A stretch of DNA of 39,967 nucleotides, from the IMG/VR virus record IMGVR_UViG_3300033146_005494, positions 1-39,967 of that record. One strand, given 5' to 3'. Both the position numbers and the translations under genes were made by a program. A model generated the notes under the pieces. That model was not told the origin of the DNA and ran no database searches. It saw nothing but the letters and a program-made list of their open reading frames with translations. This document shows positions 1,934 to 22,824 of the stretch, one piece after another; the stretch's first letter is position 1, and each line of letters begins with the position of its first letter. The stretch is from a virus.

Positions 1934-2434
1934 ATGCAAAATACATTTAAAAAAAAACAAAAAATATTCACACTATCGAATTCACAATTCATTAAATTAA
2001 AGAAACTCAAAACTTTGCAATATATTATTGGTAATCAGGATAATAAAACAATTACTTTTATATCTCAGAGTGGTGTTTATTTTACTATTATTACAAAAAC
2101 AACTAGTTTTTTCATTAAATTACTTTCATTAGATGGTACAGATTTCTTAGGTGTACCCTATAAAAAACAAATTACGTTTAAATATGATTATGATTTACTT
2201 GAAGATGGTACTAAGGAAGAGTATATTTTAAAAGTTACTGTGAAAAAAGATTCTACTGTAACTTCAATACCCATAATAGTATTAAAAGATGAACCTGTAA
2301 GGGCTAAAAATAAGACTCTTTATGAGGTACAACAAGAGAAATTGATAAGAAAAGAAGAAAGAGAAATTAAAGCGAAACTGAAAGTATTTTTAGAAGAAAA
2401 AAATAAAAACCGTAAACTCTTGAGTTTATTTTAA
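1934..2434 (+). CDS. Unknown protein with C-terminal clamp-binding-like tag
   Basis: 166 residues, function not recognised. The first two thirds alternate short hydrophobic strands (beta-rich), then residues about 125-160 form a highly charged Lys/Glu helix, and the protein ends in NRKLLSLF. That last octapeptide matches the terminal R-x-L-x-SLF peptide of the DNA polymerase, the methyltransferase and two other proteins in this window, so it probably docks on the phage sliding clamp through its tail. Start ATG 1934 has GAGGG 4 bases upstream. It follows the hub-like gene by 35 bases and precedes a late-type promoter. Clamp-tethered small T4 proteins include the late-transcription factors gp33 and gp55, but I see no sequence similarity to them. 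Confidence 0.7.
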   Translation: MQNTFKKKQKIFTLSNSQFIKLKKLKTLQYIIGNQDNKTITFISQSGVYFTIITKTTSFFIKLLSLDGTDFLGVPYKKQITFKYDYDLLEDGTKEEYILKVTVKKDSTVTSIPIIVLKDEPVRAKNKTLYEVQQEKLIRKEEREIKAKLKVFLEEKNKNRKLLSLF

Positions 2435-2438
2435 TGAT

Positions 2439-2446
2439 ATATGTAT
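2439..2446 (+). promoter_or_regulatory. Putative late promoter ATATGTAT
   Basis: ATATGTAT, preceded by T, lies 19 bases before the ATG at 2466 and just before the ribosome site AGGGAG. The same octamer precedes six other probable late genes in the window. Confidence 0.5.
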
Positions 2447-2465
2447 TTATTTTAGGGAGTAGATT

Positions 2466-3083
2466 ATGAAAGATTTAATATTACTAGTAAAAGATAACAC
2501 AGTAGTTGACGGCATATTAGAAAATGTCGATATAGCGTATGCGGATTTTGATGATGATACTAAAACAGCTATGCGTTTAGTTGAAACAATTTCAATTGAT
2601 GAAACAAAATTTACAGCTTTTGCAGTTTTTAATGATGAGGGCATACAGTTAAATGAAGAGGGTAATCCTGTAGTCTTCTATGATTTTTTATTAGCAGAAT
2701 CTTATGTTAAGAATGCACCTCTTATTATAGTTCCTTTTCAATACCATGATGGTGTGAAAATGTATAACATGAATGAAAGTAAAACAGAAGTAGCTGATGT
2801 AGTTCTTTTTAATCAAATGAGGAGTGAAATTAATCGCATAACTAGGTCATGGAGAGAAATTAGTTTAGAATCTGAAAAAGAAGCGAAAAAGGCTATGTAT
2901 TTTAGTTTCTTCATACATGATGTGGATTGGGATGGTAGGGGAGACTACGAAGCATATATAGAGAGAACAATGGATAATTTTCTGGTAGATGTTATGAGCA
3001 AAATAAAGAAAATTAATGTTGATTTAACAGCAGAGTATACATTTATTAAGTTTAAGCATTTTACTTTAAAAATAGGCTTATAA
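2466..3083 (+). CDS. Unknown late protein
   Basis: 205 residues, not recognised. The protein is acidic in its first half (many Asp/Glu, e.g. a YADFDDDTK stretch near residues 26-34) with alternating hydrophobic strands, and has a mixed helical part from about 115 to 165. No signal peptide, membrane segment or known catalytic motif is visible. The start has AGGGAG 7 bases upstream. Its own ATATGTAT late-type promoter and its position beside a hub-like gene suggest a virion or assembly protein; that is inference from context only. Confidence 0.65.
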   Translation: MKDLILLVKDNTVVDGILENVDIAYADFDDDTKTAMRLVETISIDETKFTAFAVFNDEGIQLNEEGNPVVFYDFLLAESYVKNAPLIIVPFQYHDGVKMYNMNESKTEVADVVLFNQMRSEINRITRSWREISLESEKEAKKAMYFSFFIHDVDWDGRGDYEAYIERTMDNFLVDVMSKIKKINVDLTAEYTFIKFKHFTLKIGL

Positions 3084-3123
3084 AATGAAACTCAAAAAGT
3101 AATAATAAAAAGGAGAAATTATT

Positions 3124-4053
3124 ATGAAACAATACACAATGATTTTAGATTATTCAATGTACAAAAATATAATGTTACATGGGATAGCTAATAACGTGAC
3201 TAATGATGTATCTACACCACTTTTTTATGACCTTTGGCGTAAGGGTATGATTAGTGCTATTTTTAAAACTCTTGAATTTCTTGAAGCAGATGAGGAAGTG
3301 AATGAAGTGATTGTTGCAATTGATTATGGAAACTGGCGAGTTGACTTCAATAAAGAATATAAAGCGGAGCGTTCTGTAGTAAGAGAAGCGTCCCCTATTG
3401 ACTATGAAGTTTTTAACTTGATTAGCCAAGATTTTCTTGATGAGTTGGTATTGTATTTACCCTTTAAGGGTGTTAAGTGTTGGGGAGCTGAAGCAGATGA
3501 TGTAATTGGTACTCTAATTATAAATGAACCTAATAAAAATTGGCTTTTAGCATCTTCTGATAAAGATTTCTTTCAATTAAGAAACTTCTCTGATAATATT
3601 AAGCAATATAATCCACGTACTAAGACACATGCTAAGTTTATTCCTGAATTACAAAACACACAAGTACACGCAATGATGGGAGATAAAATTGATGGTGTAT
3701 CTTCTGTTAAAAAAGGTATTGGAATGAAAAAATCAATGAAGATGATTAATGAGGGCATACTTGATGCTTGGCTTGATGATAATGGTTTAAGAGAAAAATA
3801 TGAACATAATTTAACTTTAGTGGACTTAACAAGAACACCTGAAAAAATACAATTATGTATAGTCGAAGATTATAAGAATCAAACTAAAAATTTAACTTTT
3901 AATAAAATGCAATCAATGAAGTTTCTTGCAACAGGAGATTTAGAAATCAACATATATTTAAACTGGTTAAGTACTCTTGCAAAAGAAAATAAAGAAGAAG
4001 CTGAAAAGTTAAGGAGAATTGCAAGTTTACCCAAGAGGATTATTAATGTTTAA
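3124..4053 (+). CDS. rnh: RNase H / 5'-3' flap exonuclease (T4 Rnh-like)
   Basis: 309 residues, close to the 305 of T4 RNase H, which removes RNA primers and flaps from the lagging strand. The metal-binding acidic residues of the FEN/5'-nuclease family are visible in order: D9, D67 in VAIDYG, the GAEADDVIG block at 121-129, SSDKDFFQL with D146 and D148, and MGDKIDGV with D187 and D190 at the start of the helix-hairpin-helix region. AGGAG precedes the ATG at 3124. The stop overlaps the start of the methyltransferase gene by 8 bases, so the two are translationally coupled. It does not carry the SLF tail. Confidence 0.93.
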   Translation: MKQYTMILDYSMYKNIMLHGIANNVTNDVSTPLFYDLWRKGMISAIFKTLEFLEADEEVNEVIVAIDYGNWRVDFNKEYKAERSVVREASPIDYEVFNLISQDFLDELVLYLPFKGVKCWGAEADDVIGTLIINEPNKNWLLASSDKDFFQLRNFSDNIKQYNPRTKTHAKFIPELQNTQVHAMMGDKIDGVSSVKKGIGMKKSMKMINEGILDAWLDDNGLREKYEHNLTLVDLTRTPEKIQLCIVEDYKNQTKNLTFNKMQSMKFLATGDLEINIYLNWLSTLAKENKEEAEKLRRIASLPKRIINV

Positions 4054-4840
4054 AATGATAAATGGGGAAGCATTACAAGAAATGGACAAGCTTATTGAAC
4101 AAGGAATTGTTGTTGATGCTATTATTACAGACCCACCCTACGGTACGTCTTCTTGTTCCTGGGATTCTGTAATAGACTTTAAGGAAATGTGGAAAAGATT
4201 AAATAAATTAATTAAACCTACTGGTGCTATAGTTTTATTTGGTTCGGAACCCTTTTCAAGTGCTTTGAGAATGAGTAATATTAAACAGTATAAATATGAT
4301 TGGGTATGGGAGAAGCGAAGAGGTTCAAATTTTTTAAATTTTGCTTATCAACCAGCTAAAAATTATGAGAATATTGTTGTGTTTTCAAAAAGTGCGACTA
4401 GTTATACCAAAAGTGGTAAAACTTGCAATTATTTCCCACAAATGTTAGTCGGACAGCCTTATGAACAAACTCAAGGATTTGGTGGGAATGCTGTAGTTAG
4501 AAAAGGGAGTCGCATAGGCAAAAAAATAATAACGAAAAATTCTGGGTTAAGATTCCCTAGTGCAATTCAAAAATTTTCTCCTGACAAGGGATTTCACCCT
4601 ACACAGAAACCTATAAAGTTAATGGAATATTTAATCAAGACTTATACTAAAGAAAATGAATTAGTGCTTGATTTTACAATGGGTTCTGGGACTACAGGCA
4701 TAGCTTGTAAGAACTTAAAAAGGGATTTTATAGGAATTGAACTTGATAAAGATTATTATGAAATTGCTTTAAAGCGATTAAATGAGATAGTTGAAGTAGA
4801 AGAAAAAGAAAACAAAAGAGGCTTGATAAGTTTATTTTAA
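4046..4840 (+). CDS. DNA methyltransferase (beta class, DPPY) with clamp-like tag
   Basis: 264 residues. The catalytic motif DPPY is at residues 29-32 and the AdoMet-binding motif DFTMGSGTTG at 209-218, the order of beta-class N6-adenine/N4-cytosine DNA methyltransferases. It would methylate phage DNA, probably against host restriction, though the target site cannot be read from sequence. The start ATG 4046 is preferred over an upstream TTG because AAGAGGA precedes it and because the copied mini-ORF at 6078 begins at the equivalent ATG. It overlaps rnh by 8 bases and is followed 15 bases later by thyX. The last residues KRGLISLF are the shared tag, suggesting the enzyme rides on the replication clamp and methylates new DNA; this is inference. 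Confidence 0.93.
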   Translation: MFKMINGEALQEMDKLIEQGIVVDAIITDPPYGTSSCSWDSVIDFKEMWKRLNKLIKPTGAIVLFGSEPFSSALRMSNIKQYKYDWVWEKRRGSNFLNFAYQPAKNYENIVVFSKSATSYTKSGKTCNYFPQMLVGQPYEQTQGFGGNAVVRKGSRIGKKIITKNSGLRFPSAIQKFSPDKGFHPTQKPIKLMEYLIKTYTKENELVLDFTMGSGTTGIACKNLKRDFIGIELDKDYYEIALKRLNEIVEVEEKENKRGLISLF

Positions 4841-4855
4841 AGGAGAAAATTAAAA

Positions 4856-5500
4856 ATGAAAATAATAAAACCGTATTTTGTAATTGAAGAAGAAATAGAC
4901 AAAGTAAACATACTTAAGCGAATTGAAAAAGCAGGTCGCACAGCATATAAAAGTGAAGACAAGATAACTGAAAAAAGTGCTCCTGAATTTGTTAAAAAAA
5001 TGATGAATTTTAAACATGTATCTGTTATTGAACATTCACAATTATCTTTTAGGTTTATTACAGATAGGGGGATTACACATGAAATTGTTAGAAGTCGATT
5101 ATTTTCCTACACCCAAGAATCTACGAGGTACTGTAATTTTTCAAAAAATAAATTTGGTAATGAGATAACAGTTATTGAACCATTATTCTTTGAAAAAGGT
5201 ACTGTAAAATATAACTTGTGGCTTGAAAGTATGCTTTTTGCAGAGAAAACTTATCTTGAGTTACTTAAAAAAAAAGCTACACCACAAGAGGCTAGAAGTG
5301 TTCTTCCTAATTCCCTTAAAACAGAAATTGTTGTTACAGGTAATATAAGATTGTGGAGAACTTTTTTAACTCTTAGGTGTAATAAAGCAAGCCACCCACA
5401 AATGAGAGAACTCACATTACCCCTACTAATATACTTGAATAGGGAATTACCAGAACTTTTTGGCGATTTACATGAAAAGTTTATTTCAATCAATATCTAA
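4856..5500 (+). CDS. thyX: Flavin-dependent thymidylate synthase ThyX
   Basis: 214 residues, the usual ThyX length. The enzyme makes dTMP from dUMP with FAD, NADPH and methylene-tetrahydrofolate. The ThyX signature region runs from R79 to Y92: R-S-R-L-F-S then ...ESTRY. The consensus is RHRxxS, so the central His is Ser (S80) here. Upstream, the HVSVIEHSQLSFRF segment (54-67) is typical of the family, as is the late LRCNKASHPQMRE segment (about 173-185). AAGGAGAAAA precedes the ATG. Its end overlaps the opposite-strand gene at 5486 by 15 bases. In this AT-rich phage it would supply dTMP. Confidence 0.93.
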   Translation: MKIIKPYFVIEEEIDKVNILKRIEKAGRTAYKSEDKITEKSAPEFVKKMMNFKHVSVIEHSQLSFRFITDRGITHEIVRSRLFSYTQESTRYCNFSKNKFGNEITVIEPLFFEKGTVKYNLWLESMLFAEKTYLELLKKKATPQEARSVLPNSLKTEIVVTGNIRLWRTFLTLRCNKASHPQMRELTLPLLIYLNRELPELFGDLHEKFISINI

Positions 5501-5989
5501 TAAGTCTTCTTCATATTGAATTATTTCTTCCCACGATAACCAATGCGGTTTAAATGAGAGAATCTTATATAGCTCTTTCATTTTTTTAATATGACTCTCA
5601 AGTGTTTGACCCCATATTCTACTAAGAGTATTGTTATTAATTGCATATTCACAATCCCTTTGTAACCTATTGAGAAGCATATATTGAAAAGATTGGTCAC
5701 CACGATTTACACCTAGCTCCATAGTAAAATCTACTGTTCTACCTTCCTTCAATAATATAACTAGTAATTTATGGTTACCTAATTCTACTTCAAAGGCATA
5801 ATTATTCCCTTTTAAATTTTTAATTTCTGCATTAAATATGTCATCGAAAAAATCTTCAAGTAACTCTTTAGATTTCACTAATGAGCCTACTAATTTTCCT
5901 TTAATGAAATTGGATTTTCCTTTAACAGGTGAAACCCTAATATCATATTTTTTTAATTTTTGTGCTAAAATCTGTGTAGTTAATTTCAT
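5486..5989 (-). CDS. LPD11-like domain protein (polyvalent-protein type)
   Basis: 167 residues. The C-terminal half, from RGDQSFQYMLLNRLQRDCEY (about 95-115) through WGQTLESHIKKMKELYKIL to the final WLSWEEI block, has the pattern I know from LPD11, a domain found in large polyvalent proteins of plasmids, conjugative elements and phages. The N-terminal half is Lys-rich with short strands and is not recognised. It lies alone on the minus strand, converging on thyX with a 15-base overlap. The start has GAGGAG 7 bases upstream, and a TATATATATT run, one base off the late octamer, lies about 30 bases further up. LPD11 is often found with ArdC-type proteins, and an ArdC homologue is present at 16181, so a role in establishment or antirestriction is plausible but unproven. 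Confidence 0.7.
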   Translation of the reverse strand: MKLTTQILAQKLKKYDIRVSPVKGKSNFIKGKLVGSLVKSKELLEDFFDDIFNAEIKNLKGNNYAFEVELGNHKLLVILLKEGRTVDFTMELGVNRGDQSFQYMLLNRLQRDCEYAINNNTLSRIWGQTLESHIKKMKELYKILSFKPHWLSWEEIIQYEEDLLDID

Positions 5990-6023
5990 TTTTTAATCTC
6001 CTCTGTAAAATAATATATATATA

Positions 6024-6052
6024 TTGATTAATTAATAAAAAGCTGTTATAAT
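6024..6052 (+). promoter_or_regulatory. Sigma70-type early promoter, copy 1
   Basis: TTGATT (6024-6029), 17-base spacer, TATAAT (6047-6052). The sequence is identical over 45 bases to the promoter at 6189. It would drive the 35-codon mini-ORF and probably the clamp-loader operon. Confidence 0.8.
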
Positions 6053-6077
6053 AAGATTCATTTTTAGGAGTTTATCA

Positions 6078-6185
6078 ATGTTTAATATGATAAATGGGGA
6101 AGCATTACAAGAGATGGACAAGCTTATTGAACAAGGAATCGTTGTAGATGCTATTATTCAAAGGGGATTAATGAGTTTATTTTAA
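6078..6185 (+). pseudogene. 35-aa internally deleted methyltransferase copy keeping the tag
   Basis: A 35-codon open frame. Residues 1-27 match the first 27 residues of the methyltransferase at 4046 almost exactly (MFNMINGEAL against MFKMINGEAL, then the same to DAII). It then jumps directly to QRGLMSLF, the equivalent of the methyltransferase tail KRGLISLF. Everything catalytic, including DPPY and the AdoMet site, is missing. It has its own sigma70-type promoter and TAGGAG 7 bases before the ATG, and the frame is intact. It is either a deletion relic or a small expressed peptide that still carries the putative clamp-binding tail. Confidence 0.75.
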
Positions 6186-6188
6186 AAT

Positions 6189-6217
6189 TTGATTAATTAA
6201 TAAAAAGCTGTTATAAT
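6189..6217 (+). promoter_or_regulatory. Sigma70-type early promoter, copy 2
   Basis: TTGATT (6189-6194), 17-base spacer, TATAAT (6212-6217), beginning 3 bases after the mini-ORF stop. It drives the 124-aa gene and the clamp loader. Confidence 0.8.
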
Positions 6218-6246
6218 AAGATTCATTTTTAGGGAGTGAAAATAAA

Positions 6247-6621
6247 ATGAAAGATGTTAAAAAATGGTTGAAAGAAAATGAAACCTTACCCAAATATTTC
6301 AATGAGATGAAATTCTCAACAACTGTTCAAAGTTATGGTGTTATTACCTTAAAAAGGGGGATTTACACATCTTATATTAAAGTAATAAAAACGCCTGAAG
6401 GATGGTATATAGTGGATTCTTCAAATAGCGAAAATATGAGTTTATGGAAGACATTATCTTCAGAAAACATACTTCAAATTACTTTAAATGAGTTAGTTGA
6501 GTATTACATTAAATCTGAAAGAGATACTAATATTAATGCTCGATTAAGTAGGCTAGTAATAAAAGAGACTTTAACAGAGTCTGAAAAAAAAGAAATAAAA
6601 AATTTAATTAATAAACTTTAA
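6247..6621 (+). CDS. Unknown small protein upstream of the clamp loader
   Basis: 124 residues, not recognised. It shows a strand-rich middle (about 25-60, with TSYIKVIKTPEGWYIVDSS) and a helical C-terminus (about 75-124) rich in Lys and Glu. AGGGAG lies 8 bases before the ATG at 6247, right below promoter copy 2. Eleven bases separate it from the clamp-loader gene, so they form an operon and a replication-related role is possible. It does not resemble T4 gp62. Confidence 0.65.
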   Translation: MKDVKKWLKENETLPKYFNEMKFSTTVQSYGVITLKRGIYTSYIKVIKTPEGWYIVDSSNSENMSLWKTLSSENILQITLNELVEYYIKSERDTNINARLSRLVIKETLTESEKKEIKNLINKL

Positions 6622-6632
6622 TAGGGGAAAGT

Positions 6633-7721
6633 ATGGTAAAGTCACTAACAAAAAAAGAACAAGAAAGAGCAGAAGAAAGAATGTTTAAAATTATTGAAAA
6701 AAGAAATACAATAGAAAACTCGAATCAGTGGATTATTAAGCACCAACCATTGACTTGGGATAGTTTAATTTTTCCTAAAGCTTATAAAGATGATTTTAAG
6801 AAACAAGTAGCTTCTGGGGAAATGCATAACATAATTTTAACAGGGGATACAGGTGAAGGTAAAACTTCTCTTATTAAGGTTATTTTAAATGAACTTGGAG
6901 TTACGGAAGATGATTATATGTGGATTAATGCATCTGTTGATAATGGTATTGCTGTAGTAAGAGATTTAATTCCTGAGTTTCTTGATAACCCAAGCATTTT
7001 TTCTGAGATTAAACCAGCAGGATATAAGAATAAGTTTCCTCTTATTATATTAGATGAGGTGGATGCTATGTCACCTGAAGCTCAAAAAGGTTTAAGGGGT
7101 TTTATTGAACAAGAAGACTTGAAAGCAAGGTTCATTTTAACTATGAACGACCCATCACAACTACATAAAGCTTTTGTTGGAAGATTCCGTTACTATGATT
7201 TTGATTTGATTTTTAGTGAATTTAAATCAGAGGTTCAAGCAGATTTAGTAAGACACATAAAAGAAAATCTTTTAAAGCCATATGACATACCTTTTACTGA
7301 TGGTGGTCTTTTTGATATATTGAAAGCTCATTATCCTAGTATCAGGAATATCATGGTAGAGTTACAAAAACAAGCAGATGTCTATGGTGAAATTACAGAA
7401 CATGGTAATATTAAGAATCTTGAGGAGTTAATTGATATAATAGAGGGAGGTAATCTCAAGGAGATGCACAAATATTTAAAAGACCCTTATGTTCATGCTA
7501 TTATTTTTGAACAATTAGTGGCGTATTATGTAGAACAAGACGATTTTACAGCAATTAATTTACTTGCAGTTGCTTCTTATGAGAGGAGATTTTCAACGAT
7601 TCCTAGTATTACAATGGTAAATCTTTTATATAAATTACATTTAAATGAGCTTGATGAGGAAGAAGAAACTTTAGAAGAAAAAATTGATAACCTTATTGCC
7701 TTGGTTAAGAAAAAAAGGTAG
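6633..7721 (+). CDS. 44: Clamp-loader AAA+ ATPase (gp44-like)
   Basis: 362 residues (T4 gp44 is about 320). The protein loads the sliding clamp on primed DNA. Walker A is GDTGEGKTS at 71-79 and Walker B is LIILDEVDAM with DEVD at 141-144. Sensor 1 is in FILTMNDPSQL (N172), and a GRFRYYDF segment at about 183-190 occupies the position where clamp loaders carry their arginine finger. The N-terminal WIIKHQPLTWDSLIFP resembles the start of other clamp loaders. The C-terminal collar region is followed by an acidic EEEE stretch and a Lys-rich end, making it longer than T4 gp44. The start has AGGGGAAAGT upstream. A partner equivalent to gp62 was not recognised in the window. Confidence 0.93.
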   Translation: MVKSLTKKEQERAEERMFKIIEKRNTIENSNQWIIKHQPLTWDSLIFPKAYKDDFKKQVASGEMHNIILTGDTGEGKTSLIKVILNELGVTEDDYMWINASVDNGIAVVRDLIPEFLDNPSIFSEIKPAGYKNKFPLIILDEVDAMSPEAQKGLRGFIEQEDLKARFILTMNDPSQLHKAFVGRFRYYDFDLIFSEFKSEVQADLVRHIKENLLKPYDIPFTDGGLFDILKAHYPSIRNIMVELQKQADVYGEITEHGNIKNLEELIDIIEGGNLKEMHKYLKDPYVHAIIFEQLVAYYVEQDDFTAINLLAVASYERRFSTIPSITMVNLLYKLHLNELDEEEETLEEKIDNLIALVKKKR

Positions 7722-12011: not shown

Positions 12012-12065
12012 ATGCACTACACAGGTAAATATTTTGATTCACCCTTGAAGAGGAAAAATGACTAA
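12012..12065 (+). CDS. 17-codon leader ORF overlapping DNA polymerase start
   Basis: An open frame encoding MHYTGKYFDSPLKRKND. It has the strongest ribosome site of the neighbourhood, AGGAGGTAAAA, directly before its ATG, and its stop (12063-12065) overlaps the first codons of the polymerase gene (ATG at 12058). A ribosome finishing it would end on the polymerase start, so it probably sets polymerase translation by coupling. The peptide itself has no recognised function. Its short length leaves some doubt that it is more than a spacer. Confidence 0.5.
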   Translation: MHYTGKYFDSPLKRKND

Positions 12066-15054
12066 GCAATACCTAGCAATACAATTATATAAAAATAAGC
12101 TTTATGTGAAAGAAAAAGAGAATGGCATCATAAAAACAAAAGCTTTCAGAGATTATGATAAAGGTTTTAAATACTATCGTCCTGATGTTACAGGAAAACA
12201 TAATTCTTTCGATACTCGCAAATATAAAGAGTATTCTATTAACAGCATTTATAAATACAATAAAAAAATTAAAGCTTTAGTTAAAGAAGGTCAAGAAGTC
12301 TGGGGAGCCGACAATATTATACACCAATATATCATGAATGAGTATCCTGCGGATGCTTCAAATTATTCACTGAGAGATTTTAGGGTAGTGAGATATGATA
12401 TAGAAACTGAATATGCGGGCATTCATAAAGACCCTGAAGAAGGATTTTATGCTATTAATTTAATCACTTTACATAACACCCAAACCAATACTTATTATAT
12501 TTGCCACTTCTTCCCAAATAAACCAAGAATAGAGGAAATTAAAAAAGAAATTGCTGTATTAAACATTAATTTTGATGACTATAAAGTTATAATAAAAGAT
12601 TTTAACGATGAGTTCGATATGTTGCATTGGACTTTAAGTTTCATTGGTAAAAATGCAGATATTTTAGGTGGTCTTAATAATATTATGTTTGATGACCCCT
12701 CTCTCTATTACCGTGCGAAAAAAATAGGTGTTGATGTAAGTATTATGTCACCGTTTGGTGTAATAAATGAGACCACTACAAGAAATGCTTATGGTAAAAT
12801 TCAAGCAACCATAGAAATAATGGGAATTAATGTTTATGATATAATGTTACTAGCTAAGTTTCTTATGAAAAGTTTACCATCTTATTCTTTACAATATTTA
12901 TCTGAAATGGTACTTAAGTCTTCAAAACTTGAATACACAGGCTCTTTATATGTACTTGCCCAAGAAAATTTAAAAAAGTTCTTTGCTTATGGTTTTATGG
13001 ATATATTTAATACTGTAGGAATCGATGAAAGGGAAGGTTTGTCAGACTCAGCCCTTGCTTTAGCTTATTTAAAAAATGTTGATTTAAGTGATTACGATTC
13101 TGTTGTTACAGGCTTTGAAAACATCATTGCAAAATACCTAAAAGAAGATTTCCAGCAAATTTCAGGTATGACACCCCTTGAAGTACATAAAAGGTTTCCT
13201 TATTTAGGAGGGTATAATTTTCTTATTAAAGCAGGATTATACTTATGGCTTGTTATCATAGATATGAAAGCTATGTATCCTTCAGTAGATGAAACTTTTA
13301 ATATTTCTTTTGAAAATATTTTTACATTGGAAACTGTTCATGATGATATAAAAGCGGTTTTGAAAACAGAAAAATATAAGAAACTTTTTAATGTGCTTAA
13401 TGAAAATGGTAGAAATGACGTGCCTATAAAAGAATATCGACATAGTCGAGGAAGAAAAATTTCACCTACGTTATATAAATTATATAAATGGAGTTCTGCA
13501 AAAGGTAAATTTATTGAAGAACCTATTGAAGTAGGACAACGCATACCTGCAATGAAACAAGACGGGACTTGTTATTATCCTTATATTGAAGATTTAGCGG
13601 TTTCTGATAAGGTGGATTTTATATACCCTCTTGAAGATTTATCTTTATTAAATATTACTCCTGAACACCCGTTATATAGAGATGTGGTATTTGCTACAGG
13701 AGATATTTTAAGTAGGATGCCTGATATATCAGAATTGCAAGACCTATTGAGATTTCATAATCTTTCTATGGTTCCTTCTTTAGTATTCTTTTCAAGGGAA
13801 AAGGAAGGTATATTGCCCCATGTTTTTGTTAAGTTAAAGAGTAAGAGAAAACATTGGCAAGGTTTACATAAGGGCGTTTTATCAGAATTGCAAGTAGTTA
13901 TGGATGCAGGGATTGAAGAAAGTATTGATGAATTAACTCATGAAGCTACTAAGACAAAGAGACAAGATAAAAGTTATAAAAAAGTTGGTAATTCAGGGTA
14001 TGGAGCCTGTGCTAATATACACTTTAAGTATTTCAATATAAATGTTGCAACAGGCATTACTTCAGGAAGTCAATATTTTATAAAAAGCTTAAGATATCAT
14101 TTAAATTTAAGATTGAATGAAGTTTTTGGAACCTCAGGTGTATCTTATATTAGGTATGGGGATACTGATTCTCTTGATATACATATTGAAAGATTTGTTA
14201 GTATGGTTACTTTTAAAGATAAACCTAATCCTGAAAAAGTAGATTATGTTAAACCAATTTTAAACTTTTATGACAAGTGGCTTGACCCTAACATTAAAGA
14301 GATACTTGAAACCTCTTGTAAGTACTTAAACGCATATACAAATGCAATGATAATGGAACTTGAAAAAATTAATTCTGAAATGCTATTTTCTGCTAAGAAA
14401 AAATATGATATGCGTAGTGTTTATGTAGACCGTGTTATTTATAAAGATGGTAAAATAAGTTCAATAGGAACAGCTTCTAAATCAATATCCTACCCTAAGA
14501 AAATTGTTAAGTGGCTTGATGAGGCTCTTGTAATTATCCTTGATAAAGATGCTCAAGGTTTATATACTTTTATTGAAGAAAAAAGAAAAGAATTTAAGCA
14601 AGTGACAGATATTAAAACTATCTCTACAAAAGTAAAAATAAGTGATTATCAAAAGTATGTAGAGTTTATAGAAGGAGATATTTATGATTTATACCCTGCA
14701 AACGAAATTGCTAAGGCTATAAAAACCCGTAGGTATTTTGAAGGTTCAGATTATTATCTTAAATCAGGGGCTCGACCGATAGCTAAAGGGGTGTCATTTG
14801 CAAACTACTTAATAAGAAAAAGAAACTTAGAAATTGAAACATTGACAACAGGGACTTATGGTAACTTAATTCCTCTTATTAATGCACCTAGTCAATTTTT
14901 ATTTTTTACAGAAGATATTGAAGCTTTTGGCGTTAAGACGTGGCAAATAGACTTCGATACTCAATTTGAAAATATGTTTTTAAAGCCACTATATATTAAG
15001 ATTAATGCTAGTGGTGTAACACCACAAAGACCAGGACTGATAAGTTTATTTTAA
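12058..15054 (+). CDS. 43: Family B DNA polymerase (gp43-like) with clamp-binding-like tail
   Basis: 998 residues (RB69 gp43 is 903). All exonuclease motifs are present: Exo I YDIETEY with D114 and E116, the same numbering as in RB69; Exo II NNIMFDDPSLYYRA with D212; Exo III YGFMD with Y311 and D315. Polymerase motif A is DMKAMYPS at 402-409, motif B GNSGYGACAN with NSGYG at 645-649, and motif C YGDTDS at 700-705. The SYSLQYLSEM segment near 275-285 also parallels RB69. The extreme C-terminus is RPGLISLF, in the place where RB69 polymerase carries its clamp-binding peptide, and it recurs on four other proteins here. It is expressed from the promoter at 11938 through a hairpin and a 17-codon leader ORF. 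It is the main replicative polymerase. Confidence 0.97.
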   Translation: MTKQYLAIQLYKNKLYVKEKENGIIKTKAFRDYDKGFKYYRPDVTGKHNSFDTRKYKEYSINSIYKYNKKIKALVKEGQEVWGADNIIHQYIMNEYPADASNYSLRDFRVVRYDIETEYAGIHKDPEEGFYAINLITLHNTQTNTYYICHFFPNKPRIEEIKKEIAVLNINFDDYKVIIKDFNDEFDMLHWTLSFIGKNADILGGLNNIMFDDPSLYYRAKKIGVDVSIMSPFGVINETTTRNAYGKIQATIEIMGINVYDIMLLAKFLMKSLPSYSLQYLSEMVLKSSKLEYTGSLYVLAQENLKKFFAYGFMDIFNTVGIDEREGLSDSALALAYLKNVDLSDYDSVVTGFENIIAKYLKEDFQQISGMTPLEVHKRFPYLGGYNFLIKAGLYLWLVIIDMKAMYPSVDETFNISFENIFTLETVHDDIKAVLKTEKYKKLFNVLNENGRNDVPIKEYRHSRGRKISPTLYKLYKWSSAKGKFIEEPIEVGQRIPAMKQDGTCYYPYIEDLAVSDKVDFIYPLEDLSLLNITPEHPLYRDVVFATGDILSRMPDISELQDLLRFHNLSMVPSLVFFSREKEGILPHVFVKLKSKRKHWQGLHKGVLSELQVVMDAGIEESIDELTHEATKTKRQDKSYKKVGNSGYGACANIHFKYFNINVATGITSGSQYFIKSLRYHLNLRLNEVFGTSGVSYIRYGDTDSLDIHIERFVSMVTFKDKPNPEKVDYVKPILNFYDKWLDPNIKEILETSCKYLNAYTNAMIMELEKINSEMLFSAKKKYDMRSVYVDRVIYKDGKISSIGTASKSISYPKKIVKWLDEALVIILDKDAQGLYTFIEEKRKEFKQVTDIKTISTKVKISDYQKYVEFIEGDIYDLYPANEIAKAIKTRRYFEGSDYYLKSGARPIAKGVSFANYLIRKRNLEIETLTTGTYGNLIPLINAPSQFLFFTEDIEAFGVKTWQIDFDTQFENMFLKPLYIKINASGVTPQRPGLISLF

Positions 15055-16180: not shown

Positions 16181-17041
16181 TTATAGTTTCCTATTTGTGC
16201 CCGTGTTTTGATTATCAAAAATGAAATCAAAAGCTTTTTGACTCTTACTAGCAGCTTCAAATAATATTGAAGGGTTCTCACCAATTGCATTAATCCACCC
16301 TTCAAGATAAGCTGTAGAGTTCTCCAATCGTTCTTCTGAGTTAAGCCCAAAGTGTGATAAAGTCATCGCTGAAAAAATTTCTGCTACAAGTTCCTCTTTT
16401 GAGTAACTTTCTTTGTCGTCATGGTCTTTGAAACGATTTAATCTTTTTTCAGCACCAGACCAATGACCAACTTCATGAAACGCACTCCCATAAAAGTTGT
16501 TAATATTCTCATATATATCTCTTGAAGGCATTACTATTTTGTCTTGGGTGACATTGTATTGAGGTGTTGCATAATCATTGTATTCAATGACCATATCAGG
16601 TTGCTTTACTTGAATTAAACCTAAATAGTCAAAAGACTCTGAATGCTCTGTTTTTTCTTCTTCAGGAATCTCCGCATCTGTTTGACTTAAATTAAATAAG
16701 TTGAAATAAGATATTATTACTCTTGTTTCTTCTTCAAGTGTCTCCTTATTTTCTTTTACAATAAACTTGTAAAATAAGCATCTTGTAGATTTCTCACCTT
16801 TATTAATTTGGTAACCTTTATTTTTAAAAGCCTTATAAGTCCCCCATTTATTACTCCTATATCCTTTTTCAAATGCTTGAAAAGTAAGTAAGAGTTGGTT
16901 TACGCCACGATAAGCTTTTTCAGTTACTATGTTTTGGTGCGTAAATGGTGCAGCTTGATTAGGTAGATAACTATTCCACGAATAACCTTTACCCAATCCC
17001 TCAATAATCTTTTCAAGTATCTCTTCTTTTACTTTATGCAT
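16181..17041 (-). CDS. ardC: ArdC-like antirestriction protein
   Basis: 286 residues. The N-terminal half (about 1-120) is the ArdC ssDNA-binding domain: YRGVNQLLL at 44-52, a GTYKAF block near 67-72 and the INKGEKS segment at 79-85. The C-terminal half is the zincin-like metallopeptidase domain of polyvalent proteins, with HEVGHW at 189-194, a nearby zinc-ligand candidate in KEELVAEI (216-222) and family-typical SGAEKRLNR. ArdC proteins enter with or are made early from mobile DNA and protect it from type I restriction. AAAGGGGG precedes the ATG. Expression comes from two tandem leftward promoters, each holding a palindromic operator, so the gene is probably silenced after entry by a repressor I did not find. 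Confidence 0.88.
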   Translation of the reverse strand: MHKVKEEILEKIIEGLGKGYSWNSYLPNQAAPFTHQNIVTEKAYRGVNQLLLTFQAFEKGYRSNKWGTYKAFKNKGYQINKGEKSTRCLFYKFIVKENKETLEEETRVIISYFNLFNLSQTDAEIPEEEKTEHSESFDYLGLIQVKQPDMVIEYNDYATPQYNVTQDKIVMPSRDIYENINNFYGSAFHEVGHWSGAEKRLNRFKDHDDKESYSKEELVAEIFSAMTLSHFGLNSEERLENSTAYLEGWINAIGENPSILFEAASKSQKAFDFIFDNQNTGTNRKL

Positions 17042-18110: not shown

Positions 18111-18515
18111 ATTAAAGAGAAAGAATTTGCAGTTTTTGGTGGGATTTTAAGATATCTTATCATTGAGAAGGGTTCTGAAGCAATAAAAAGAAAGATTATC
18201 AGAAGTGGTCTTTACTCTTATACAGCTGATTGGTGGGGAAGTTATGTAGTGTATGAATTCACTAAACCTAAGTTTGGTTATGATAAAATTGAGTCTTTTT
18301 ATGGGGAAGACGAAGACAATATAATCTTTGATTATCAAGATGAAAATAGCGTTGCAGTACCATCACTAATAATGATACCTGCAAATGTAAAAGTAAAAGA
18401 GTATCTTGAAAAAGAAAATCTTAAATATATTGAAAAAAGAGATTATAATGTATTCTCAGAACTTCAAGATTTTTTTATAGTTGATGCTTTTAGTTTACAT
18501 AAAATTACAAAATAA
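18009..18515 (+). CDS. Unknown protein with duplicated start region
   Basis: 168 residues from the first ATG, or 151 from a second in-frame ATG at 18060. The first 17 codons (VKLKTEEFKKISKGGK) are an imperfect tandem copy of the next 17 (IKLNTEEFEKLSKGLE). The second start has the stronger ribosome site (AAAGGAGG, 5 bases away) and the first has GGGAG, so both may be used. The remainder is mixed alpha/beta with a WWGSYVVYEF strand near residues 77-86 and is not recognised. The last 30 codons and the downstream hairpin have been partly copied into the following intergenic space. Confidence 0.6.
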   Translation: MVKLKTEEFKKISKGGKMIKLNTEEFEKLSKGLEIKEKEFAVFGGILRYLIIEKGSEAIKRKIIRSGLYSYTADWWGSYVVYEFTKPKFGYDKIESFYGEDEDNIIFDYQDENSVAVPSLIMIPANVKVKEYLEKENLKYIEKRDYNVFSELQDFFIVDAFSLHKITK

Positions 18516-18523
18516 ACTTTATC

Positions 18524-18546
18524 AGGAGCCTTTTTAAGAGGCTCCT
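18524..18546 (+). promoter_or_regulatory. Intergenic hairpin, copy 2
   Basis: AGGAGCC (18524-18530) and GGCTCCT (18540-18546), a perfect 7-bp stem with the same 9-base loop as copies 1 and 3. Confidence 0.6.
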
Positions 18547-18547
18547 A

Positions 18548-18604
18548 ATGATACCTGCAAATGTAAAACTAAAAGAGTATCTTGAAAATGAAATTACAAA
18601 ATAA
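18548..18604 (+). pseudogene. 18-codon internally deleted copy of the preceding gene's end
   Basis: The frame encodes MIPANVKLKEYLENEITK. Its first 14 residues match the 168-aa protein from MIPANVKVKEYLE on, then it jumps to the last residues ITK and stop, followed by a further copy of the hairpin. It has no ribosome site of its own. It is a relic of a tandem duplication with internal deletion, the same kind of event as at 6078. Confidence 0.65.
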
Positions 18605-18612
18605 ACTTTATC

Positions 18613-18635
18613 AGGAGCCTTTTTAAGAGGCTCCT
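18613..18635 (+). promoter_or_regulatory. Intergenic hairpin, copy 3
   Basis: AGGAGCC (18613-18619) and GGCTCCT (18629-18635) with the same 9-base loop, and flanking sequence (AAACTTTATC before, TAATAATAAACTAAAAA after) shared with the other copies. Confidence 0.6.
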
Positions 18636-18660
18636 AATAATAAACTAAAAAGGATATAAA

Positions 18661-19113
18661 ATGAAATTTGAAAATATTGATGGTCAATTAAAAATTCAAG
18701 AATATGATTTTTTTGATATTAAATTACCTTATAAAAATACAATTGAAAAAAAAATTGTTGAGCAATCAGGACGTGTTTATTATCATAGTTATGGGGAGGA
18801 AGGGTATATAAGCACAACTATATATGATATACCAATCTCTCTACAAGAAGAACAAGAAAAAATACTTATGGAACTTACTAAGTTACCTAAAGACAAACCA
18901 CGATTATATAAAAATATAATTTCTGAATGTGGTGATGTACAAATGGGGTTATGTATTATTGAAAAAACTACAATAATTGAACGATTTATTAAAAATCAAG
19001 ATTCATGGTTGTCAAAAGATATTGGGTTTTACATAGATGAATCTTTAAATGAGCAAGAAGGCATTATATTTTATATTTATGGTAGTTTGCAAAAAACTAA
19101 AAAAGGTGAATAA
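18661..19113 (+). CDS. Unknown protein
   Basis: 150 residues, not recognised. Strand-rich in the first third (with RVYYHSYGEEGYISTTIYD near 41-60), helical in the middle (about 63-90) and again strand-rich at the end. No signal peptide, membrane segment or cysteine cluster. AAAAAGGAT lies 7 bases before the ATG. It follows the hairpin/duplication zone and precedes a small zinc-ribbon gene by 2 bases, so it belongs to the rightward accessory operon. Confidence 0.6.
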   Translation: MKFENIDGQLKIQEYDFFDIKLPYKNTIEKKIVEQSGRVYYHSYGEEGYISTTIYDIPISLQEEQEKILMELTKLPKDKPRLYKNIISECGDVQMGLCIIEKTTIIERFIKNQDSWLSKDIGFYIDESLNEQEGIIFYIYGSLQKTKKGE

Positions 19114-19115
19114 AA

Positions 19116-19283
19116 ATGAAAAAAGAGGTTATATTAAAATGTGAAACTTGTGGTAAAGAATGTAATTTCAATACTATTAACGGTGTTATAGTTTTTAATC
19201 TTAAATGTGATATTTGTTGTATTAAATCAGCAAGTAATTATGGGGAGGTAAAAAATGGCAAAAATGTTGAATATGGAAGGTAG
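19116..19283 (+). CDS. Small zinc-ribbon protein
   Basis: A 55-residue protein with CETCGKEC near residues 9-16 and CDICC at 31-35: two CxxC knuckles about 20 residues apart, the layout of a zinc ribbon. It starts 2 bases after the preceding stop (at best a weak AAAAGG site at 19101) and its end overlaps the next gene by 29 bases, so it is translated by coupling. Small zinc ribbons in phages often bind nucleic acid or RNA polymerase, but nothing here specifies the partner. Confidence 0.6.
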   Translation: MKKEVILKCETCGKECNFNTINGVIVFNLKCDICCIKSASNYGEVKNGKNVEYGR

Positions 19284-19689
19284 TTTGTTAGTGGTTCTTG
19301 CAGAACTAAGAAATGTCACAAACAAGAATACTTTTTTTAGTTTAACATATTACAATACTAATCCAACAATTTATAACATAAAAGAGCATAATAAGAATGG
19401 TGATGCAAGAGCTAAAAAACCCTTTGTGGTTCAGTGGCTCCAAGAATCAATTTATGATGTAAACTTCATACCACCAAAAAAAATGTGGTATATAAACTTG
19501 ATGAAGGAGAATAAATCAGTGCTTATAGATATGCTTGAAAAAGCTTATAAAGAGCATATAATAACAAGAGAACCACGATTTAAAGTTCTTAAGAATCACA
19601 CCAAAACTCAATTGATATTTGAATTGAATAATGTTATTAAATTAGAACAAAGAAAGGTAGGAGAAAAAAATGAGTTACCAAAAAAATGA
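19255..19689 (+). CDS. Unknown protein
   Basis: 144 residues, mixed alpha/beta, strongly basic towards the C-terminus (KLEQRKVGEKNELPKK). No recognised domain. GGGGAGG precedes the ATG by 5 bases. It overlaps the zinc-ribbon gene upstream by 29 bases and the ABC-type ATPase downstream by 20, so the three are tightly coupled and could act together. The FSLTYYNTNPTIYNI stretch near 28-42 might be a small beta domain; that is only an impression. Confidence 0.6.
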   Translation: MAKMLNMEGSLLVVLAELRNVTNKNTFFSLTYYNTNPTIYNIKEHNKNGDARAKKPFVVQWLQESIYDVNFIPPKKMWYINLMKENKSVLIDMLEKAYKEHIITREPRFKVLKNHTKTQLIFELNNVIKLEQRKVGEKNELPKK

Positions 19690-20431
19690 AAGATTTATAA
19701 TTGTTATTAATGATTATTATTATTATTTAGGGCATAAACAAAAAGGTGAATCTTGTGGAATTTTCCCAGATATATGTCCTGAGATTAAAATAAAGGGTGC
19801 AAATGTTATTGAATGTATAGGTGAATTGAAGTTGGAATTAGCTAATTTCATTGAAAATAAAGAATCAATTTTTGATGCTATTAAAAATGATGGCATTAAG
19901 AGATTGTTATTAAGACGTTCGATTATTAAGGATTTGCAAATTATTGTCGGATATAATGGTTGCGGTAAAACTAAATTAATTAATTATCTTTCAGATTCTC
20001 CGAGATTTAGAACATTGAAATTTGATAAAACAATTGAACTAAATGTCAATGAAGATATAAAAGAATTTATATTTGAGGAATTTAAATTTAAATTTAATTC
20101 TGCTTTGGAATTGTCTTCAGAAGGGATATATAATCTTGTAAATTTATTTAGTCAACTAAATCAATTTGATATTAATAAACATGATTATTTTATTGTTGAT
20201 GATATTGAACTTGGTTTACACATTACACTACAAAAAGATTTAATCGAAAAAATGCAATTATTTGAACCAAAAGCAAGTCTTATTGTTACAAGCCATTCTC
20301 CAAGTATTATTAACGGGGCTTGGTTTAATGTTACTGATATGAGTGATGACAATACTACTTATGATAGTCTTATAAGTGAACTAGTAAAAGCTGAATTAAA
20401 ATGCGATAAATTAATAAAGGATAGGTTTTAG
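19670..20431 (+). CDS. Compact ABC-type (RecF/OLD-like) ATPase
   Basis: 253 residues. Walker A GYNGCGKT at 94-101, an ABC-signature-like ELSSEGIYNLVNL at 148-160, Walker B YFIVDDIELGLH at 173-184 with the catalytic acid E180, and the switch histidine in TSHSP at 207-211. This is the minimal ATPase core of the RecF/SMC/OLD group with almost no room for a coiled coil, and no Toprim or nuclease domain follows. Such ATPases occur in DNA repair and in phage defence and counter-defence pairs. The coupled 144-aa protein upstream is the obvious candidate partner. AGGAGAAAAA precedes the ATG. Confidence 0.8.
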   Translation: MSYQKNERFIIVINDYYYYLGHKQKGESCGIFPDICPEIKIKGANVIECIGELKLELANFIENKESIFDAIKNDGIKRLLLRRSIIKDLQIIVGYNGCGKTKLINYLSDSPRFRTLKFDKTIELNVNEDIKEFIFEEFKFKFNSALELSSEGIYNLVNLFSQLNQFDINKHDYFIVDDIELGLHITLQKDLIEKMQLFEPKASLIVTSHSPSIINGAWFNVTDMSDDNTTYDSLISELVKAELKCDKLIKDRF

Positions 20432-20446
20432 GTAAACTTTAATTTA

Positions 20447-20475
20447 TTGACAAATTATTCAAAAAGTGATATTAT
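20447..20475 (+). promoter_or_regulatory. Sigma70-type promoter
   Basis: TTGACA (20447-20452), 17-base spacer, TATTAT (20470-20475), a short distance before the GAGGAG ribosome site of the gene at 20499. Confidence 0.7.
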
Positions 20476-20498
20476 AATAATGACTGAGGAGTGTATTT

Positions 20499-20813
20499 AT
20501 GATGAAAAAATTTTTAAATAATAGGGAAGGTACTTTTGTGGATGCAAGAAAACAAGTATTCTCAAAAGTGATTCAAGATGGTAAAATATGGTATGGATTC
20601 AGAAGTGACCTTACATATTCACCCGAAGAAATAAAAAGAATGCAAGCAATCATTAATTTAAAAAGATTAAGTTTGACTTTAAGGAGTAGTTCATTTGTCC
20701 TGTTAAGTGAGGTATTAGAAATTGAAATGGAGATTAATGAATTTTCAAAAAAGAACGCATATTATTTTTTAAGGTCACTAAAAAAATTAGGATTAACAAT
20801 GCTTGATGAGTAG
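20499..20813 (+). CDS. Unknown small protein
   Basis: 104 residues, basic, mainly helical in the second half, with a LRSSSFVLLSEVLEIEMEINEF stretch that looks like a helical pair and could mediate dimerisation or DNA binding. Two successive ATG codons (20499 and 20502) follow GAGGAG. It is the first gene below its own TTGACA promoter. No family recognised. Confidence 0.6.
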   Translation: MMKKFLNNREGTFVDARKQVFSKVIQDGKIWYGFRSDLTYSPEEIKRMQAIINLKRLSLTLRSSSFVLLSEVLEIEMEINEFSKKNAYYFLRSLKKLGLTMLDE

Positions 20814-20824
20814 GGAGCGAAAAA

Positions 20825-20863
20825 ATGCTAAAAAGTGAAGTATTAAATTACAGAGAGGTTTAA
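20825..20863 (+). CDS. Possible 12-codon leader ORF
   Basis: Encodes MLKSEVLNYREV with GGGAG about 5 bases before the ATG, and ends 2 bases before the next gene, overlapping that gene's GAGAGG ribosome site. It parallels the leader ORF before the DNA polymerase. It is too short to be certain and may be chance. Confidence 0.25.
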   Translation: MLKSEVLNYREV

Positions 20864-20865
20864 AA

Positions 20866-21150
20866 ATGGAAATTAAAATTATAGGAGTGCCTAAACGCAT
20901 AAACACTAAATGGTTTTTTGAATTATACAGTATTGACCCTAAAACTCACACACATATTGAATTAGGTATTCCTGAGAATATATTTGAAGTATTCTTATTA
21001 GATGTTGCTAAATTACACGCAAATATTTATCCTTGTGGAGATATTATTTTAACAGTTAATCAAGAAGTATACGTTTTTAACACACCGTATCTTGAATTTT
21101 TAAAAGATGATGTTAAGCATGGTTTTAACTTAACACTTTATAAGGAGTAA
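20866..21150 (+). CDS. Unknown small protein
   Basis: 94 residues, mainly beta, not recognised. The N-terminus reads MEIKIIGVPKRINTKWFF and the middle NIFEVFLLDVAKLHANIYP forms one helix. GAGAGG precedes the ATG. It is followed 2 bases later by the tagged 105-aa gene, so they are coupled. There is no cysteine cluster or membrane segment. Confidence 0.6.
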   Translation: MEIKIIGVPKRINTKWFFELYSIDPKTHTHIELGIPENIFEVFLLDVAKLHANIYPCGDIILTVNQEVYVFNTPYLEFLKDDVKHGFNLTLYKE

Positions 21151-21152
21151 CT

Positions 21153-21470
21153 ATGAAAGATTATAGGGATGTGTTTAAGGAATTTAAAAAGTACTTTAAT
21201 GTAGAAAAAAGTTTTATTGATAAGATTACCAGTATGATATCAGGTAAATATATTTTTGACATAGTTTTATTTGATGAGTATATTTTAGAAACTTATAATT
21301 ATGATGAGAATGTAGAGCCACTTCAAAGTTTTATTTTAAGAAAATTTGGCAAAGAAGCAATTGAATTTATTGAAGAGATTATGAAGGGTGAAGTACCTTT
21401 ACATGAAAGTTTTATTAATGAAGAAGAACCTGAAATAGAAGATAAAAGAAAACTAACAAGTTTATTTTAG
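21153..21470 (+). CDS. Small acidic protein with clamp-binding-like tail
   Basis: 105 residues. The body is helical (about 1-80), followed by an acidic linker NEEEPEIED (about 90-98) and the end KRKLTSLF, which matches the C-terminal tag of the DNA polymerase, methyltransferase and others. The architecture of a small body, flexible acidic linker and terminal clamp peptide is what one would expect of a clamp-tethered adaptor. T4 gp33, the late-transcription coactivator, is similar in size (112 residues) and binds the clamp through its C-terminus, but no sequence similarity is visible. AAGGAG precedes the ATG. Confidence 0.7.
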   Translation: MKDYRDVFKEFKKYFNVEKSFIDKITSMISGKYIFDIVLFDEYILETYNYDENVEPLQSFILRKFGKEAIEFIEEIMKGEVPLHESFINEEEPEIEDKRKLTSLF

Positions 21471-21497
21471 CAGGAATCATATTAGGGAGTAATTTTA

Positions 21498-21854
21498 ATG
21501 AGAATATATCAAAGTAAAGATAAACTTAACATAAGAACACTACTTAAAATAAGTGGAAAAGAAAAATCTACTTGGGGTAAGAAAAAACAAGACGAATTCA
21601 TTGAATTAGTAAAATTGGGGGTATACCTAAACCCTTTATATTTTTTAGAGGATAAATATGGCAAATTAAGTGTTTTAGATGGGAAAAGTCGTTTGCATTC
21701 AATACATAACTTTTCACTAAAAGGATTCTCTGATTTAACCCCTAAATCTCAAACAGCTTTTTTAGATTATACATTTGATGTTGTTATATTTAAACCACAA
21801 AATAAAAAAGACTTGATAATAAAAATACAAAAGAGATTGAATAATGAATATTAA
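21498..21854 (+). CDS. DUF262/ParB-like small protein
   Basis: 118 residues. The core NPLYFLEDKYGKLSVLDGKSR (about 45-65) has the pattern of the DUF262/ParB-like fold, in which a variant of DGQQR forms the nucleotide-binding turn; here it is DGKSRLHSI. It corresponds to only the first part of a DUF262 domain, so it is a minimal version and lacks the C-terminal nuclease domain of GmrSD-type restriction enzymes. It ends overlapping the GNAT-like gene by 11 bases. That coupling suggests one pathway, possibly DNA-base modification; this is inference. Confidence 0.5.
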   Translation: MRIYQSKDKLNIRTLLKISGKEKSTWGKKKQDEFIELVKLGVYLNPLYFLEDKYGKLSVLDGKSRLHSIHNFSLKGFSDLTPKSQTAFLDYTFDVVIFKPQNKKDLIIKIQKRLNNEY

Positions 21855-22824
21855 ACTAAAAACCTTAAATATTACTAGTTATAATGAAATAGTAAAAAAA
21901 TACTTAAATTTCATTGCCCCTGAAGACATACCATATGAGCTTGGATGGTTATATATCGATGCTATGCCTAATGGTGCTTGCTATTATGAGAAAGACAATA
22001 TATTATATCTATATAGATTCTTTAAAAGGTATGGTAAAACAGTACTTTATTTAATGGCTCCGCCCATTGATTATTCAGGTTTCAGATATGACTTAATGAA
22101 GGAACTTTACACTGATTATAATATACCTGTAGTAACCCCTAGAGGTCACTTAACAGACAATAAAAATTCCACGAGATTCAACCAAACAGGTAATATTTTA
22201 TACCATATTGACAAAGATAAATTTATGAGCTTAGTAGGTAAAAGATATATGAAGTATAGGGTAATTTTGAATAGGATTGAAAAGAGTCCAAGAGAAGTGA
22301 CTGTTGAATCCTTTAACTTCGGAGATAGAAATATCCCCTTAGGGGCTATTAAATTTTTATTAGGTCAATGGGCTGTAAATACTAACAAGAATTTCCATAC
22401 TTATTCACTTATGAGGGTAATTGAAAATCCACAAGTAGATGCTTTTATTAATCTTTACAGTATTGACGGAAACTTAGTTGCTTTAAGTGTTATGGAAAAG
22501 TTAAGAGATGGTTATTATTTCATACCTGAGAGAAAACACATTTTACAAGCTAATGATACAAAAGAACTAAAAACAAACTACTTTAATTTTTTTATACATT
22601 ATACCGACATTAAGATAACTTTTGAAAGAAACCCTGAATTAAAAGAATTTTACGGTAGTTTTGGATTTGGTGATGCAAATGTGATGAAAATGAAAAGAGA
22701 TTTAAGAGACTTTGTTACACCCTTGAAAGTTTACTTCAAATATAAGAAAAAAGAACAACCTAAGATAACTTTTGAACTCATAAAAGAGAATAACAACACA
22801 AGAGGCTTAACAAGTCTCTTTTAA
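21844..22824 (+). CDS. GNAT/FemX-like transferase with clamp-binding-like tail
   Basis: 326 residues. The second half (about 190-310) resembles a GNAT fold of the FemX/DUF2156 type: DAFINLYSIDGNLVALSVME strands, then the late FYGSFGFGDANVMKMKRDL segment, where such enzymes have a G-x-G-x-x-x-x-x-K turn before the last strands. The first half may be a second, degenerate copy. The C-terminus TRGLTSLF is the shared tag. An acyl- or aminoacyl-transferase held on the replication clamp would make sense as a DNA-base modifying enzyme (phage Mu Mom is a GNAT-fold example), but the substrate is unknown. Its stop overlaps the stop of the opposite-strand tail-tube gene by 4 bases. Confidence 0.55.
   Translation: MNIKLKTLNITSYNEIVKKYLNFIAPEDIPYELGWLYIDAMPNGACYYEKDNILYLYRFFKRYGKTVLYLMAPPIDYSGFRYDLMKELYTDYNIPVVTPRGHLTDNKNSTRFNQTGNILYHIDKDKFMSLVGKRYMKYRVILNRIEKSPREVTVESFNFGDRNIPLGAIKFLLGQWAVNTNKNFHTYSLMRVIENPQVDAFINLYSIDGNLVALSVMEKLRDGYYFIPERKHILQANDTKELKTNYFNFFIHYTDIKITFERNPELKEFYGSFGFGDANVMKMKRDLRDFVTPLKVYFKYKKKEQPKITFELIKENNNTRGLTSLF

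Follow-up and report, generated by a model that had tools for sequence, protein, structure and literature searches.

A shared C-terminal tail on the DNA polymerase, a methyltransferase and further proteins of a divergent T4-like phage: a putative sliding-clamp-binding motif

Positions 1-39,967 of the IMG/VR record IMGVR_UViG_3300033146_005494, the whole stretch of 39,967 nt analysed here and referred to as the window, are assigned from their gene content to a fragment of a divergent, low-GC (28.7%) T4-like phage. A group of proteins encoded in the window ends in a common short C-terminal tail. The six C-termini are NRKLLSLF (stop at 2434), KRGLISLF (4840), QRGLMSLF (6185), RPGLISLF (15054), KRKLTSLF (21470) and TRGLTSLF (22824). 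They belong to five called genes and one mini open reading frame (mini-ORF) of 35 amino acids (aa) and have the common form [RKP]-x-L-x-S-L-F. The endings and their stop positions agree exactly with those listed in a preliminary description of the window, and no further plausible gene ending in SLF has been found in it. Four of the five genes conform strictly to the pattern R-x-L-x-SLF proposed in that description, if K is allowed in place of R; the exception is the DNA polymerase, which has P two residues before the leucine.

The tripeptide SLF occurs eight times in the 12,171 residues of the 44 called proteins, a set that excludes the mini-ORF, and five of these eight occurrences are exactly C-terminal. 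The chance of L-x-S-L-F at a given C-terminus is 3e-5, which corresponds to 0.0014 expected tails among the 44 genes against five observed; under a simple composition model the probability of at least five such tails is about 3e-17. The leucine codons vary across the six tails (CTC, TTG, TTA, CTG, CTA, TTA), and the sequence AGTTTATTT is common to five of the six tail DNA sequences. A copied DNA element as the source of the tails has been considered and rejected, since the codons differ between the genes. From these differences in the last codons we conclude that it is the protein sequence of the tail, and no repeated DNA segment, that has been preserved.

All the tailed genes are encoded on the plus strand. 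The family B DNA polymerase of T4 gp43 type (12058-15054, 998 aa; PGLISLF at 15031-15051) matches phrog_262 (1e-120) and the RB69 gp43 structure 1clq (1.7e-47), in agreement with its earlier description as a DNA polymerase. The DNA amino-methyltransferase (4046-4840, tail RGLISLF at 4817-4837) belongs to the family N6_N4_Mtase (Pfam, 7.8e-35) and to phrog_67 (3.3e-71). The ATG at 4046 is its more likely start, giving 264 aa and correcting the preliminary description. It has the DPPY motif, the S-adenosylmethionine-binding motif, the N6_N4_Mtase domain and the corresponding fold. The AlphaFold2 (AF2) model of this protein (METHYLTRANSFERASE), built from 34 sequences with a predicted local distance difference test score (pLDDT) of 87, matches the N6-adenine methyltransferases M1.HpyAVI and CcrM. 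The tail falls beyond the region shared with 33 aligned homologues.

The mini-ORF (6078-6185, tail RGLMSLF at 6162-6182) repeats the N-terminus of the methyltransferase in its first 27 residues, as had been claimed before. The two genes are identical at 77 of 81 nt over this region, after which the mini-ORF jumps to the tail. The two tails are near-identical as protein; of the five nucleotide differences between them, three are silent. The mini-ORF is preceded by its own sigma70-like promoter (TTGATT-17-TATAAT) and a ribosome-binding site, both read by eye, and may represent a truncated duplicate of the methyltransferase gene. The promoter-like element of about 44 bp, comprising TTGATT-17-TATAAT and the ribosome-binding site, occurs twice, at about 6026-6068 before the mini-ORF and at about 6192-6234 before the next gene.

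The remaining tailed proteins are a 166-aa protein without Pfam or PHROG match (1934-2434, RKLLSLF at 2411-2431), a 105-aa acidic protein without detectable family (21153-21470, RKLTSLF at 21447-21467) and a putative acyltransferase of 326 aa with weak FemAB/LPG_synthase_C similarity (21844-22824, RGLTSLF at 22801-22821). The proteins at 1934 and 21153 had been called small adaptors, a label that gains no support from the current analysis, as they have no detectable homologues and carry no gp33 or gp55 signal. Searches with gp33 and gp55 profiles by hmmsearch and hhalign gave no significant match to either, the profiles being small (7 and 14 sequences), so that distant homology is still possible; profile searches of the window for gp33, gp55 and gp62 candidates likewise gave nothing significant. 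The protein at 21844 had been described as GNAT-like. This rests on a sub-threshold match to Pfam LPG_synthase_C (E=0.0034, 16.9 bits, cut-off 27.5); no FemAB or GNAT domain scores above the curated cut-off in it, and no homologues have been found, also in IMG/VR. The untailed gene at 21498-21854 on the plus strand overlaps it by 11 bp and encodes a 118-aa protein with a GmrSD_N/ParB-like domain (Pfam GmrSD_N 3.8e-6, below the curated cut-off). One could speculate that the two form a DNA-modification pair.

When the window polymerase is aligned with six diverse polymerases of gp43 type, its ending RPGLISLF is placed on the T4 ending ASLDFLFG and the cyanophage ending VSLLSFF, and thus occupies the homologous position on gp43. 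The tails of T4 gp43, gp55 and gp33 are clamp-binding motifs that closely resemble one another and can be freely exchanged (PMC2988020; PMC7892883), and the parallel drawn earlier between them and the window tails is upheld by this alignment together with PMC2988020. The T4 control tails read SLDFLFG (gp43), SLDFLYEAND (gp55) and TLDFLL (gp33). All six window tails show the hydrophobic pattern L-x-x-[LF]-F at or near the C-terminus, and the first motif position is L in each of them, as in T4, and never Q. The residue that follows is I, L, M or T; the acidic residue of the T4 type (LD or LE) is lacking, so that LISLF in the window stands against LDFLF in T4. The ending SLLSFF of cyanophage S-RIM32 is also without it, which suggests that the acidic residue is common and not strictly defining. 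The bacterial beta-clamp motif QLxLF, to which the tail had also been compared, shares the hydrophobic spacing, and this part of the comparison stands; at position 1 it has Q, whereas the window tails invariably have L. Since the polymerase tail aligns with the clamp-binding motif of T4 gp43, docking to the clamp is the best reading of the shared tail. We consider it likely, on the sequence evidence as a whole, that the tail represents this lineage's particular form of the sliding-clamp-binding motif known from T4 gp43, gp33 and gp55, and that its carriers are putative clamp clients.

The occurrence of such tails has been surveyed in 86 T4-like records, about 2 Mb including the window, with 2627 genes of at least 60 aa. 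The strict tail pattern is found in 3.9% of the C-termini and at 0.17% of internal positions, a 23-fold enrichment. The tail of the gp43-type polymerase matches the motif in 77 of 82 sampled records. Besides T4 gp33, which served as positive control, the non-polymerase carriers are mostly DNA-modification enzymes. They include Tet/JBP oxygenases in three contigs, a C5-methyltransferase adjoining a glycosyltransferase, another glycosyltransferase, two DpdA-like proteins (phrog_10773), two QueC-like proteins (phrog_26038) and an amino-methyltransferase family. The suggestion of a portable tag on DNA-modifying enzymes is thereby borne out in many other T4-like phages. The core genes are untagged: no tail was found among 27 gp44, 33 gp62, 22 gp45, 47 UvsX, 31 gp41, 33 RegA, 14 gp46 and 14 gp47 proteins. 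The acidic tails of gp32 (LDDLLNDL) fit a looser pattern and have not been counted as tags. Pattern matches in T4 118348 (IIGLFE), the Ochrobactrum phage baseplate protein (GITDFFI, PF12322) and 116958, S-RIM32 51315, an 85-aa protein of L069, L430 and L453 have been judged to be chance or doubtful. In the contig L034 (4234-6919) a T4-like polymerase is split into two ORFs, the second of which has two tail-like motifs in succession at its end (TLMDFFSEE... and ATLESFF).

The tail is conserved in two unrelated enzyme families. It is present in 60 of 61 distinct complete Tet/JBP relatives from IMG/VR and in 60 of 61 members of the amino-methyltransferase family, whose single exception ends in LDSFM, these figures being counts of related sequences and not of independent events. 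In Tet/JBP the linker before the tail varies by 2-3.5 bits, and the motif positions L, E, F and F by 0.2-0.6 bits. For the relatives of both families, 84 cases have a tailed polymerase encoded on the same stretch. The tails of the enzymes are closer to the polymerase tail of their own phage than in shuffled pairs (p=0.005, without the window and T4), a comparison made on 24 pairs assembled by hand. In held-out T4-like contigs from bacterial genome assemblies, seven non-polymerase carriers have been identified among 692 genes against 1.4 expected. They are two amino-methyltransferases, a 5-hydroxymethyldeoxyuridine (5-hmdU) DNA kinase (PF18723, 1e-11) and its neighbour (phrog_17781), a 190-aa protein without assigned function, and two that look like chance. 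The tagged kinase and its tagged neighbour lie at 16755-18928 of L444, a contig that is assigned to the bin of a bacterial genome.

Cultured phages provide further examples. The Tet/JBP protein of the Stenotrophomonas phage DLP_6, which has a gp43 polymerase, ends in ...ATLGDFFV. The corresponding ends of Tet/JBP and polymerase are ...SLEEFFV and ...TLEDFFG in C48C1, and ...NLNDFLGE and ...TLEDFFG in the Methylophilales phage Melnitz. DpdA of the Stenotrophomonas phage Marzo ends in ...NSLDDLFG and its polymerase in ...SSLEDLFGW. In the Synechococcus phage BUCT-ZZ01 both DpdA (...ASLDSFFD) and a glycosyltransferase (...GSLEDFFND) are tagged, together with the polymerase (...STLDDFFS). Among phages lacking gp43, no such tail is seen on Tet/JBP of HTVC112P, S-CBWM1 and P12024L or on the C5-methyltransferase of S-TIM5.

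The T4-like character of the window phage is evident from homologues of gp43, gp44, gp23 and gp20. The large subunit of the clamp loader, of gp44 type, is encoded at 6633-7721 on the plus strand (phrog_168, 1.5e-48; hhalign to gp44, 99.8%), and matches to the major capsid protein Gp23 (5e-15) and to a T4-type portal, gp20 (1.5e-52), are also present. The closest polymerase relatives in IMG/VR, INPHARED and GTDB contigs share about 32% identity, except for one fragment of 41 residues at 46%. The sliding clamp had been placed at 28984-29799 (plus strand, 271 aa), adjoining the gene at 27957. The hhalign program puts gp45 114-153 on residues 155-196 of this protein in the expected register, with a weak match (P=0.05), and its AF2 model from the single sequence has a pLDDT of 35. 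Searches with tblastn, phmmer and hmmsearch gave no hidden Markov model, PDB or phage match. We treat it as a candidate for the clamp. The adjoining 27957-28964 is, by position only, a possible gp32 analogue; its protein ends in ...AKSLTDF, like the polymerase of Rhizobium phage I1_18 (...YSLTDFGD), possibly a degenerate tag. On the other side, 29837-30898 encodes a protein with the N-terminal domain of trigger factor (PF05697, 1.7e-8), which is an unusual companion for the replication genes of a phage. Elsewhere in the window, 16181-17041 and 5486-5989 encode, respectively, an ArdC-like antirestriction protein with a zincin domain (ArdcN 1.6e-24) and an LPD11 polyvalent-protein domain (6.5e-18).

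The tail could instead dock on the beta clamp of the host, DnaN, through a motif of the QLxLF type. The end L-x-S-L-F does resemble QL[SD]LF, and the relatives of the window methyltransferase (L326-L373) speak partly in the same direction. Most of them end before the position of the tail. Among 37 distinct proteins, LF forms the very end of seven (0.11 expected) and occurs within the final six residues of three more, and two finish with QLSLI or QLRLI. A gp43-type polymerase was seen on the fetched stretch of only one of these relatives, L327. The LF, QLSLI and QLRLI ends hint that elsewhere members of the methyltransferase family may work with the beta clamp of the host. For the window such docking is unlikely: besides gp43 the phage encodes a clamp loader of its own, of gp44 type, polymerases of the gp43 family are known to work with a phage clamp, and glutamine never takes the place of the leucine that opens all six tails.

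It is more improbable still that the tail is a signal for a protease, localisation or assembly that also happens to sit on the polymerase. Short C-terminal signals such as degrons and localisation tags are known in bacteria and phages; however, the tail occupies the exact site of the gp43 clamp motif, and other T4-like phages carry it on proteins that act on DNA, the core proteins of replication and recombination being without it. We also give very little weight to the view that the polymerase tail alone is functional and the others are relics or chance. The mini-ORF resembles a deletion remnant, and 1934, 21153 and 21844 have no relatives that show conservation of the tail. Against this, chance is excluded by the tail statistics, the varied codons with a preserved protein sequence argue for upkeep, and in other phages the tails are conserved against a fast-varying linker.

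Docking on the clamp has precedents. In T4, as in the window, a short C-terminal L-x-x-[LF]-[FLY] motif is common to the polymerase and small accessory proteins (PMC2988020, PMC7892883); T4 carries it on the polymerase and two late-transcription factors, whereas the window and its relatives carry it on DNA-modifying enzymes. T4 alpha-glucosyltransferase (alpha-GT) binds gp45, according to Sommer 2004 as cited in PMC6024577, and the pull-down has been repeated (PMC13216743). Like the system proposed here, this is a phage DNA-modifying enzyme on a sliding clamp; unlike it, one enzyme only is concerned, and its C-terminus (...KEQFDIITK, read here) has no such motif. Eukaryotic DNMT1 binds PCNA and marks newly replicated DNA (PMC9690074). 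This too is a DNA methyltransferase recruited to a clamp, with a different clamp, a different motif and a role in maintenance methylation, not in defence against restriction. With these two cases already known, the earlier phrase 'a new system' was too strong. C-terminal clamp tails on phage DNA-modifying enzymes have not been found described in a search of the open-access literature. The clamp tag and the tool-belt principle are already known, and the breadth of the client set is new.

Several observations, besides the relatedness of the counted sequences and the hand assembly of the pairs, weigh against the clamp-docking reading. No close relative of the window phage was found in IMG/VR through the polymerase, the clamp candidate, 21844 or gp44, so that the conservation of its own tails lacks a comparison set. 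The clamp gene is not established, 28984 being a candidate only, and three of the five tagged proteins (1934, 21153 and 21844) have no confident function assignment. In the AF2 model the methyltransferase tail continues the last helix, at lower confidence, and does not form a free coil, and the window-type methyltransferase of the T4-like contig L327 ends in NLIKHFQ. Most C5-methyltransferases of T4-like phages are untagged (G012, G013, G015, Melnitz, XG4), the Tet/JBP tail of Cr30 is degenerate (...GATLF) and DpdA of pf16 ends in ...VTLDLMCA. The tag is frequent, not universal, on the modification enzymes of T4-like phages. Clamp binding by T4 alpha-GT was found not to set the levels of alpha and beta glucosylation (PMC13216743).

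If the tail is a clamp-binding motif, it would dock the replicative polymerase on the phage clamp, and the same tail would most likely let the methyltransferase, 21844, 1934 and 21153 ride the same clamp. Modification enzymes riding the clamp could then act behind the fork and modify the bases of newly copied DNA ahead of any attack by host restriction. In this scheme we infer the binding itself, which protein is the clamp, when the modification takes place, and what 1934, 21153 and 21844 do. For T4-like phages in general we lean towards a portable tag that serves as an address to 'modify at the ring', in which unrelated modification enzymes have each gained the tail typical of the polymerase of their phage. 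Multi-step base hypermodification would run on the sliding clamp behind the fork, with methyltransferases, Tet/JBP oxygenases, DpdA-like and QueC-like enzymes, DNA kinases and glycosyltransferases as clients. Tails of the QLxLF type may serve phages dependent on the host beta clamp in the same way.

The clamp tag offers a testable answer to the question of how phages modify new DNA fast enough to outrun restriction. It also provides a simple sequence rule, by which a C-terminus like that of the polymerase marks a protein as a likely clamp client. The rule flags 1934, 21153, 21844, phrog_17781 and the glycosyltransferases as proteins that may act at the fork.

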